DNA of 36,144 nt from a virus: positions 1 through 36,144 of IMG/VR virus record IMGVR_UViG_3300034071_000260; one strand, given 5' to 3'. Numbering within the stretch: the first letter of the stretch is position 1; each line of letters opens with the position of its first letter. Both the position numbers and the translations under genes were made by a program. The notes beneath the pieces are model-generated. The model was not told the DNA's origin, did no database searches, and saw only the letters and a program-made list of their open reading frames with translations. Of the stretch, positions 7,000 through 9,878 are shown in pieces.

Positions 7000-7932
7000 A
7001 TGATTGAAATTATTATTGGATTAGTTTTTGCGTTTGGCGCTGCATTATTTTTTGAGATGCAAAATGGCGAAGCGTGGACAAGAAAAGAATATAACAAAAG
7101 GTATGAAAGTGAAAAACAAGGCGTTCCATATAAAGACGTTCCGTATAAATTTAATCTAGCAAGAATTACAGGCTTGTCTTTTGCAGGCGGATTGATTGGT
7201 TTCTTGTTTGCATCATTTACAATCATATCGGCAGGTCATCAGGGTGTGCAGGTCACACTTGGTGAGGTTAGCATGCAGACACTTGGTGAAGGCTTTCACT
7301 TTATTAATCCGATCTCAAGCGTACACACGGTTGACGTAAGGGTTACTAAGGCTGATCTTAAAAACGCTAACGCCAGCACAAGAGATATGCAGTCAGTTCA
7401 TACGGACATTGTTGTCAACTACAGACTTGATGGCGCTAAGGTAGCCCATGTGTATAAAGAGTTTGGATTACAACTAGAAGACAAGATTCTATTGCCTGCA
7501 GTTAACGAGACTTTTAAGGCAGTGACAGCACGTTATGATTCTGAAGAGTTGATTACAAAGCGGTCAGAGGTTTCAAACGCTATCCATGAAACTATTCAAG
7601 AGAAAGTCTCTAAATACGGATTGATCATTAATGAAACATCGCTTGTTAACTTTGGATTTTCAGCACAATACGAGGCTGCAATTGAGCAAAAGGTTATTGC
7701 TACACAACAAAAGCTAAAGGCAGAGCAAGATCTTGAGCGTATTAAGGTTGAGTCTGATCAGCGCATTGCTAAGGCAAAGGGTGAGGCAGAGTCTATCCGT
7801 ATTCAAGCGCAAGCGATCCAGCAACAAGGCGGTAAAGAGTACGTTGAGCTTAAACGTATTGAGAAGTGGAACGGTGAGTTACCAAAAACAGTAATGGGTA
7901 ATGCTGTACCTATGTTCAACCTTAAAGATTAA
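7000..7932 (+). CDS. SPFH/prohibitin-like membrane protein
   Basis: The 310-residue protein has a hydrophobic N-terminus (IIIGLVFAFGAALFF) and a second hydrophobic segment at about 56-78, then an SPFH (band 7) domain: SAGHQGVQVTLGEVSMQTLG EGFHFINP, VDVRV, NYRLD, ITKRSEVSNAI and SKYGL. The rest is a coiled coil (QKLKAEQDLERIKVES, AKGEAESIRIQAQA) as in prohibitin and HflK/C. Host SPFH proteins form membrane microdomain cages and control FtsH; phage homologues may counter FtsH or stabilise the membrane. GGAGAAGAG precedes the ATG. Role here is inferred from family. Confidence 0.8.
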   Translation: MIEIIIGLVFAFGAALFFEMQNGEAWTRKEYNKRYESEKQGVPYKDVPYKFNLARITGLSFAGGLIGFLFASFTIISAGHQGVQVTLGEVSMQTLGEGFHFINPISSVHTVDVRVTKADLKNANASTRDMQSVHTDIVVNYRLDGAKVAHVYKEFGLQLEDKILLPAVNETFKAVTARYDSEELITKRSEVSNAIHETIQEKVSKYGLIINETSLVNFGFSAQYEAAIEQKVIATQQKLKAEQDLERIKVESDQRIAKAKGEAESIRIQAQAIQQQGGKEYVELKRIEKWNGELPKTVMGNAVPMFNLKD

Positions 7933-8399: not shown

Positions 8400-8642
8400 A
8401 TGGCAACAACAAATCCAATTACAGGCGATCCAATTGCTACAAGATTTGGCAGTAAAGAGGCACAAGAAAAATTCGATCAGTCGTTTGATACAATTTTTGG
8501 TGCTAAGAAAAAAACTAACGGAGGCTGGACTCCACCACCACTACCATTGAACGAATATCCAGAGACAAGTTGGGATGATGGAGAGCAGCGTATAGAAAAT
8601 ATAGGTCGTAATTCTAATGAAGGATTACATTACAAAAAATAA
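8400..8642 (+). CDS. Small protein of unknown function
   Basis: The 80-residue product is hydrophilic with a proline-rich WTPPPLPLNEYP stretch and looks partly disordered. The start follows the previous stop by one base, with GGGAGA upstream of ATG, and it is the last gene of the rightward block. Downstream is the structured region before pqqA. No family recognised. Confidence 0.5.
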   Translation: MATTNPITGDPIATRFGSKEAQEKFDQSFDTIFGAKKKTNGGWTPPPLPLNEYPETSWDDGEQRIENIGRNSNEGLHYKK

Positions 8643-8694
8643 CCCCACAAGGTTGCGCTTATCTCAGTGTTAGCAGTCTAGAGGCGTGTGGGGT
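8642..8694 (-). terminator. Long stem-loop followed by T-run, minus strand
   Basis: ACCCCACA (8642-8649 on the plus strand) and TGTGGGGT (8687-8694) form a perfect 8-base-pair stem with a 37-base loop. On the minus strand the stem is followed by TATTTTTTG, as in an intrinsic terminator, so leftward transcripts such as pqqA could end near 8632. The loop also contains a CGC/GCG pair. No T-run follows on the plus strand, so termination of the rightward operon here is not supported. Confidence 0.5.
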
Positions 8695-8702
8695 GTGTTA
8701 TT

Positions 8703-8777
8703 AGTGAAAGCTGTCTTTGAGCATCCGACATATTTGTCTGCCCCTTTGACGTTATCTCTTTGGGCGCAGCTTTCATT
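8703..8777 (-). ncRNA. Predicted structured RNA, 3' of pqqA (orientation uncertain)
   Basis: An 11-base-pair outer stem (8703-8713 with 8767-8777, one G-T pair) encloses two hairpins: GACA-TATT-TGTC (8727-8738 on the plus strand) and GCCC/GGGC (8740-8743 with 8762-8765). On the minus strand the loops are purine-rich (AAAGAGATAACGTCAAA), typical of folded RNA, and the element sits directly after pqqA. The shape resembles a three-way junction; no known family is recognised. Confidence 0.4.
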
Positions 8778-8790
8778 TAAAACTATACCA

Positions 8791-8862
8791 CTATTTATTC
8801 ATAATGTACATTGTTACTTCAAAGCCGAAACGCATTTCAGTTGCTGATGGTTTTGTCCACAT
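8791..8862 (-). CDS. pqqA: PqqA, pyrroloquinoline quinone precursor peptide
   Basis: This 23-residue gene is below usual length limits but is preceded by a perfect AAGGAG six bases before ATG. The peptide begins MWTKPS, and residues 11-20 read RFGFEVTMYI. This aligns without gaps to 23-residue PqqA such as Klebsiella (MWKKP..., RLGLEVTLYI), with W2, K4, P5, R11, G13, E15, V16, T17, Y19, I20 and N22 identical. E15 and Y19 are the residues crosslinked by PqqE to form PQQ, the cofactor of methanol dehydrogenases. No other pqq gene is present, so the peptide would feed the host PqqB-E pathway. It is transcribed opposite to both rightward blocks. The assignment rests on alignment from memory, but the motif is highly specific. 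Confidence 0.9.
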   Translation of the reverse strand: MWTKPSATEMRFGFEVTMYIMNK

Positions 8863-8885
8863 AATAAGCTCCTTAGTTTAAAAAA

Positions 8886-8903
8886 TAGCTGAGATCTCAA
8901 CTA
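8886..8903 (-). promoter_or_regulatory. Palindrome in the pqqA leader, possible operator or attenuator
   Basis: TAGCTGAGATCTCAACTA is an 18-base palindrome with one mismatch in the pqqA leader. On the minus strand it is followed by TTTTTT, so the mRNA could form a 7-base-pair hairpin with a GATC loop and a U-run, like a weak attenuator. It could equally be a repressor site. Confidence 0.45.
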
Positions 8904-8942
8904 TTAGTTTACAGTTTGAACCTATTTTAAACAGTACGCATC

Positions 8943-8969
8943 AGTATAATCATTAATAAAACATATCAA
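8943..8969 (-). promoter_or_regulatory. Leftward promoter of pqqA
   Basis: TTGATA (8969-8964) and TATACT (8948-8943) are separated by 15 bases on the minus strand, with TG just before the -10 region. The start would lie about 70 bases before the pqqA ATG, leaving the palindrome at 8886-8903 in the leader. Spacing is slightly short; moderate support. Confidence 0.45.
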
Positions 8970-8985
8970 TAAACATTGATTGATA
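8965..8985. promoter_or_regulatory. Dyad cluster between divergent promoters
   Basis: ATCAAT-AAAC-ATTGAT (8965-8980) is a perfect inverted repeat that overlaps the -35 box of the pqqA promoter, and TTGATA follows immediately (8980-8985). The whole 8900-9016 stretch is A+T-rich. A repressor site is the simplest reading; an origin cannot be ruled out. Confidence 0.4.
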
Positions 8986-9016
8986 AAAATATTTGTGTAT
9001 TTTATTTAAAAAAGTG

Positions 9017-9044
9017 TTGCACTAATTAAAAATAAGAGTATAGT
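9017..9044 (+). promoter_or_regulatory. Rightward promoter of the ArdC operon
   Basis: TTGCAC (9017-9022), 16 bases, then TATAGT (9039-9044) and TACTACATC. ATAAGAGTATAGTTA is identical to that of the promoter at 4732-4759, and TATAxTxACTACATC matches the leftward promoter at 4313-4340. A leader of about 60 bases precedes ATG at 9111. Confidence 0.75.
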
Positions 9045-9110: not shown

Positions 9111-9878
9111 ATGACAACAAATAACATTCAATGGTCTGAGTACCTAACAGAGATCGTAGAACAAGAAGGCATTATTAGTTCTTGCTACAGATTATTTCAT
9201 GAGTATAGCGTTGGTAATCAACTGCTTGCTTATCATCAACTAAAAGATCGTGGTCTTACATTATCACCAATTGCGTCATATAAAAAATGGCAGTCACTTG
9301 GTCGTAACGTAAAGCGTGGCGAAAAAGCAATATCATTGCTATTGCCTATTACTATCAAACAAAAAGATGATGCTGGCGAAGAGACTGGTAAAGTATTCCG
9401 TATCTTTAAAGAAAAAGCAAACTGGTTTAGCCTTGAGCAAACAGAAGGTGAAGAGTTTGTTGCTCCAGAGATACAAGAGTGGAATGCTGAATTAGCACTT
9501 AAAAACCTTGACATTAAACAAGTTAAGTATGAGTACGCTAATGGCAACTGTCAGGGTTATGCTAAAGATCGCGAGATTGCAATTAACCCAGTAGCTCAGT
9601 ATCCACACAAAACACGCTTCCATGAGCTTGCGCACATTGTGCTAGGACATACTCAAGAAGGTTTGTTTGCTGACTCAGAATTAACACCACGCGACATTAA
9701 AGAGGTAGAAGCTGAGTCTGTTGCATACATTTTATGCAAAACACTTAACTTGGCTGGTGATAAAGAGTCTCGTGGCTATGTACAAAGCTGGCTACAAGAT
9801 GGCGAAATCAGCGACAAATCAGCACAACGTATTTTTAGTGCTGCAGACAAAATTCTAAAAGCAGGTAAAGGAGAATAA
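9111..9878 (+). CDS. ArdC-like antirestriction protein
   Basis: The 255-residue protein has the two ArdC parts. The N-terminal single-stranded-DNA-binding domain (about 1-110) shows YSVGNQLLAYHQL, PIASYKKWQSLGRNVKRGEKAI and LLPITIK. The C-terminal metallopeptidase-like part has HELAH at 171-175 and a third acidic ligand E202 in AESVAY, i.e. an HExxH zincin site. ArdC proteins protect incoming DNA from type I restriction and bind single strands. It is the first gene after its own early promoter, with AAAGGAGAAGTAAC before ATG, which fits expression soon after DNA entry. Confidence 0.8.
   Translation: MTTNNIQWSEYLTEIVEQEGIISSCYRLFHEYSVGNQLLAYHQLKDRGLTLSPIASYKKWQSLGRNVKRGEKAISLLLPITIKQKDDAGEETGKVFRIFKEKANWFSLEQTEGEEFVAPEIQEWNAELALKNLDIKQVKYEYANGNCQGYAKDREIAINPVAQYPHKTRFHELAHIVLGHTQEGLFADSELTPRDIKEVEAESVAYILCKTLNLAGDKESRGYVQSWLQDGEISDKSAQRIFSAADKILKAGKGE

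Follow-up and report, generated by a model that had tools for sequence, protein, structure and literature searches.

A stand-alone gene for the PQQ precursor peptide PqqA in a methylophage-like virus and its recurrence in unrelated phages

The IMG/VR virus record IMGVR_UViG_3300034071_000260, the whole of which (36,144 bases) forms the window analyzed here, carries on its minus strand a gene of 23 codons that, judged by its sequence, encodes a genuine PqqA, the precursor peptide of pyrroloquinoline quinone (PQQ). This pqqA (8791–8862) is probably an auxiliary metabolic "moron" of a Methylophilaceae phage, supplying the PQQ-pathway component that is consumed 1:1. The frame runs from an ATG at 8862 to a TAG stop ending at 8791, and its 23 amino acid product, MWTKPSATEMRFGFEVTMYIMNK, scores 43.3 bits against PF08042 (E 3.2e-11, cut-off 21.1) and 40 bits against the NCBIfam equivalog TIGR02107 (E 2.4e-10, cut-off 20). 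Both the Pfam and the NCBIfam model are exceeded at twice the curated cut-off, which bears out the identity proposed in the original prediction. The Shine–Dalgarno sequence AAGGAG that it had described (8869–8874, minus strand) is found 6 nt ahead of the ATG, and nearly all of the more than 200 phage homologues likewise have a G-rich, Shine–Dalgarno-like stretch ahead of theirs. The two residues named there as the crosslinking pair, Glu15 and Tyr19, are also present within G-F-E-V-T-x-Y, with the E-x3-Y spacing of the Glu and Tyr that PqqE joins with the help of PqqD (Glu16 and Tyr20 in Methylorubrum; PMC10906245). The motif G[FLM]EVTxY occurs only once in the six-frame translation of the window, in pqqA itself, and in none of 200 codon-block shuffles of the window. 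The peptide presumably shares 12 of 23 positions with Klebsiella PqqA, in agreement with the half that the original prediction gave, and its identity to the PqqA of cultured methylophages is far higher, at 82–96%. No relative was found for it in the PDB, and no PHROGs family matched it.

Genes for portal, major head and virion proteins and for an endolysin, recognized by PHROGs, mark the window as genuine phage DNA. For the large terminase, identity is 68–69% to the methylophage Venkman and to a Manatee Spring phage, and about 45% to HTVC010P-type pelagiphages; the window is a Venkman/P19250A-like methylophage. Homologues of pqqB–E were not detected in the window by tblastn, nor PqqE or PqqC by profile search, so that the neighboring pqqBCDE, a usual if not strict companion of pqqA, is missing here. 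The same profile search found PqqE or PqqC above the cut-off in 0 of 40 long phage records searched whole, and found both proteins in the OM43 genome LSUCC0665 and in one Methylopumilus genome. The gene therefore stands alone, as had been proposed, although such isolation from the pqq operon is no phage specialty, since hosts carry many dispersed pqqA copies as well (PMC4109929).

This host habit is widespread. All 120 sampled Methylophilaceae genomes contain pqqA, with a mean of 4.2 copies (range 1–12) and two or more copies in 113 of them. Published counts for the family give 3–12 pqqA genes, the copies being dispersed, where the remaining pqq genes are as a rule present once (PMC4109929), and one PQQ producer has five copies, three of them separate (PMC9851590). 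Because the hosts carry so many separate copies, dispersal away from the operon is best seen as a habit that they have in common with their phages. Two Nitrosomonadales metagenome-assembled genomes (L153 and L160) hold two different pqqA genes in tandem, around 200 bp apart.

The peptides themselves also point to the hosts. Bacteria sharing MRFGFEVTMY are mostly Methylophilaceae, the rest being Methylophaga, Methylomonas and a small number of other bacteria, and the commonest phage form of PqqA is the Methylophilaceae form MWT[TK]PAATEMRFGFEVTMYVMNK. Phages with MKWETPTYVDLRFGFEVTMYIYNR encode a PqqA close to the methanotroph form, such as MKWETPAYNDMRFGFEVTMYIYNR of Methylomonas, and a one-residue variant of it occurs in a 372-kb record (L335; 372,016 bases), beside tail fiber and homing endonuclease genes. 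This suggests that methanotroph phages, large ones included, also carry pqqA. The type of the phage peptide agrees with the type of the host. For the window, the methylotroph host that had been predicted is upheld by its Venkman/P19250A-type relatives, by its Methylophilaceae-type peptide and by the presence of pqqA throughout the sampled family. The pathway that would be fed is there too, as pqqA is universal in that sample and PqqE and PqqC are found in the LSUCC0665 and Methylopumilus genomes. Along with L335, a record of 30,270 bases (L346) was seen to have a methanotroph-type pqqA near tail-fiber or homing-endonuclease genes.

Phages carrying the gene are neither few nor all related. A tblastn search of 50,697 phage records (E ≤ 10) found pqqA in Venkman, P19250A, MEP301, MEP401, MEP402, four Melnitz isolates and the Manatee Spring phage; beyond two matches to "Acinetobacter phage MD-2021a", there was no further phage, and the HTVC010P-type pelagiphages, the 45% terminase relatives, gave no PqqA match. 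The two MD-2021a records (CAKLQF020000010.1 and CAKLQH020000055.1) were dropped as carriers, because CAKLQF020000010.1, the one inspected, has a bacterial ppk-pqqABCDE segment and looks chromosomal. In the small-genome isolates pqqA lacks any annotation, and in Melnitz and the Manatee Spring phage a "hypothetical protein" is annotated over it on the opposite strand. IMG/VR was scanned with degenerate DNA patterns that impose MRFGFEVTMY or LRxGFEVTMY, which yielded at least 120 stretches of the first type, 88 of the second and 3 of an alpha type (L375–L377, not proven viral), or at least 211 in total. Every one contains an ATG-started frame ending in a PqqA peptide, and none has pqqB–E in the DNA around it, in a search whose positive controls, bacterial loci, matched in many cases. 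Carriage is high in some lineages, at 4 of 5 among the near-full records of the window type, not counting the window itself, and 5 of 7 among the long records of the Venkman type. A literature search on MEP431–434 found nothing, and carriage may not extend to all cultured methylophages. One virus record of 94,535 bases (G065) has two separate pqqA genes.

Since the patterns impose the motif, selection was also measured on sequences found without it and on positions outside it. The pN/pS ratio is 0.25 (95% bootstrap 0.16–0.33) for a motif-blind set of 13 sequences and 0.36 outside the searched motif for 173 unique sequences, so purifying selection on phage PqqA is clear. This selection already contradicts the idea that the gene is a functionless passenger fragment of host DNA or a chance open reading frame, for which its mere 69 coding bases and its patchy carriage might speak; given also the strong family match and the recurrence across unrelated phages, that idea is extremely improbable. 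Small phage proteins often block host enzymes, and a phage PqqA might likewise act as a decoy that competes for PqqD and PqqE and so stops PQQ synthesis by the host. A decoy, however, would be expected to lose either Glu or Tyr, and both, together with Trp and Pro, are invariant in the motif-blind set; the phage peptide, moreover, hardly differs in sequence from the substrate made by the host. A decoy is therefore quite improbable.

The gene behaves as an autonomous mini-cassette, with its own control signals and an independent orientation, and it moves alone. The exchangeable unit, defined by DNA identity to relatives, is pqqA with about 100 bp upstream (8792–8960, minus strand). Over these 169 bp it is 95.9% identical to the relative G008, and the region 8803–9034 is 95.3% identical to the relative G006, against only 55–57% identity to either relative for the product of the adjoining gene. 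When 6 kb of Venkman were searched for near-identity, the sole DNA in common with the Manatee Spring phage was a stretch of 85 bp, pqqA with a few flanking bases. The strands of the genes that neighbor pqqA occur in all four arrangements (60 ++, 58 −−, 40 +− and 21 −+), and the loci fall into 25–49 gene-neighborhood clusters, depending on the threshold.

The control signals accord with the regulated island of its own that had been proposed for the gene. The dyad ATAGTTGAGATCTCAGCTAT (8885–8904, minus strand), a putative operator or 5′ UTR hairpin, recurs unchanged ahead of pqqA in G006, G008 and a further locus (L309); upstream dyads are enriched in the phages (35% against 8% in shuffles), and downstream hairpins are found in 57% of phages and 90% of hosts, against 4% of shuffles. 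A candidate promoter, TTGATA-15-TATACT (8939–8969, minus strand), overlaps the conserved AATGATTATNCTGATG, a block that aligns ahead of pqqA in six relatives and is present in 11 of 143 non-redundant upstream regions and in none of the shuffles. As the promoter consensus scan contains no entry for this element, with its spacer of 15, the promoter is put forward on the basis of the block conserved in the six relatives. On the other side of the gene, the convergent intergenic region 8641–8774 has the inverted repeats AACCCCACA/TGTGGGG and GAAAGCTG/CAGCTTTC and is a probable bidirectional terminator. The predicted fold of 8640–8950 has a z of −2.4; neither an Rfam family nor a tRNA nor a classical terminator was returned by scans of the pqqA region.

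As for the neighbors, the convergent one is a gene of unknown function for 80 amino acids (8400–8642, plus strand), a homologue of which is adjacent in all five pqqA-bearing relatives. The divergent one (9111–9878, plus strand) encodes an ArdC N-terminal anti-restriction domain (PF08401, 36.5 bits) and a weak M78-peptidase-like domain; it is variable among the relatives and does not lie beside pqqA there. In the early region of the phage, positions 7000–7932 (plus strand) encode an SPFH/Band_7 (HflK-like) protein, with a homologue elsewhere in G008.

If the gene does supply the pathway, the phage would transcribe pqqA from its own promoter, host PqqD would bind the peptide and host PqqE would crosslink Glu15 to Tyr19. 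A host protease, with PqqB and PqqC, would then mature the crosslinked peptide into PQQ, and the supply of PQQ to the methanol dehydrogenases (XoxF/MxaF) would continue as host transcription fails. That the gene is expressed, that host enzymes process its peptide, that PQQ rises and that the phage gains thereby are inferences, as is the sustained methanol oxidation of the original prediction. That the phage would add the precursor only makes sense because the precursor is the sole component consumed 1:1 and the host pathway is complete; it parallels the amplification of pqqA in the hosts (1–12 copies), where the other genes are reportedly mostly single copy. A tie to methanol dehydrogenase comes from one phage record of 72,356 bases (G050) in which an XoxF-like methanol dehydrogenase of 624 amino acids (L378:1084-2958; TIGR03075, 608 bits; best PDB match the XoxF 6oc5) is encoded near a stand-alone pqqA. 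A search for AmoC gave no match, with a positive control that was likewise silent. PQQ might instead be used otherwise in infection, for redox protection or by a PQQ dehydrogenase for a substrate other than methanol, which would share the substrate-supply step; as the bacteria with MRFGFEVTMY are mostly methylotrophs and one phage itself brings an XoxF-like methanol dehydrogenase, such a use is unlikely.

A different proposal is superinfection exclusion, in which extra PQQ is exported and plugs a PqqU-like outer-membrane importer that phages use as a receptor. A PqqU-dependent coliphage is indeed blocked by PQQ (PMC12124388), and larger Methylophilaceae have full-length PqqU-like proteins with 37–38% identity. 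Yet nothing matches PqqU in LSUCC0665 and AG-390-L14, two streamlined OM43 genomes, and the matches in a Methylopumilus genome (G038) and an OM43-like one (G043) are weak and partial (one genome of this comparison, G037, is a partial single-cell genome). The carriers of pqqA are phages of OM43 and LD28-type hosts in spite of this, and the receptor-plug hypothesis is accordingly weak and has little chance of being correct.

Supply of the precursor to the host pathway, the preferred reading, has several points weighing against it. Carriage is only 2 of 12 among long records of the MEP401 type, several of them fragmentary, and one relative of the window (G025) lacks pqqA; being patchy even in one terminase lineage, the gene must be dispensable, and it looks like an accessory gene that is gained and lost, not a core one. 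Methanol dehydrogenase, once loaded, keeps its PQQ tightly bound, and so it is not evident why a single lytic cycle would require fresh PQQ. In Acetobacter, the rise in PQQ was eightfold with pqqABCDE but only 29% with pqqAB alone (PMC7936290), and hence the precursor may not limit everywhere.

Whether phage pqqA had been described before was a question that the original prediction left open, and one prior report exists: VP_266, a T4-like population from Lake Baikal, was found to encode PqqA and the same purpose was proposed (Coutinho et al. 2020, PMC7678222). Like the window phage it is a Methylophilaceae phage, but it has a methanol dehydrogenase on the same contig, whereas the 36-kb window phage has PqqA only, and the breadth and autonomy of pqqA were not described (PMC7678222). 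A 2026 reservoir survey mentions viral pqqA in passing (PMC13188868), and PqqA is absent from the papers in which Venkman, Melnitz and MEP401/402 were described. The idea of a phage PqqA is therefore not new; its breadth, its autonomy and its systematic non-annotation are. Judged against the open-licence literature searched, outside which an earlier report is possible, the new elements are the recurrence in cultured phages that are unrelated and in over 200 viral sequences, a likely presence in methanotroph phages, the cassette behavior, the selection and the finding that the phage records searched lack PqqE and PqqC. Compared with the PqqA of Methylophilaceae (PF08042/TIGR02107), the window gene is alike in length, E-x3-Y core and sequence, and the hosts too have several off-operon copies (PMC4109929), but it lies in a virus genome whose record lacks PqqE and PqqC, and in an exchangeable cassette of its own. 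The pmoC of methanotroph phages (PMC7674155) offers a likeness, in that host energy metabolism is sustained by supplying one component. The psbA of cyanophages does likewise. Both encode subunits of enzymes or complexes, whereas pqqA encodes a substrate peptide that is consumed stoichiometrically.

Taken more widely, it is somewhat favored that phages whose hosts are PQQ-dependent C1 bacteria in general (Methylophilaceae, methanotrophs and perhaps hosts resembling Methylobacterium) have repeatedly acquired stand-alone pqqA, as a "consumable-substrate" auxiliary gene that is both common and mobile. It would have been overlooked because genes for 23 amino acids are rarely called and no PHROGs family matches them. 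To supply a consumed peptide substrate instead of an enzyme is an unusual logic for a viral metabolic gene, and one that can be tested in existing phage–host pairs, such as Venkman or Melnitz with H5P1 and MEP401 with FZCC0133. The effect of phages on the flow of methanol and methane carbon is judged from annotated genes, and with pqqA unannotated in most of its cultured carriers and unmentioned in three isolate papers, the influence of viruses on methylotrophy has probably been underestimated.
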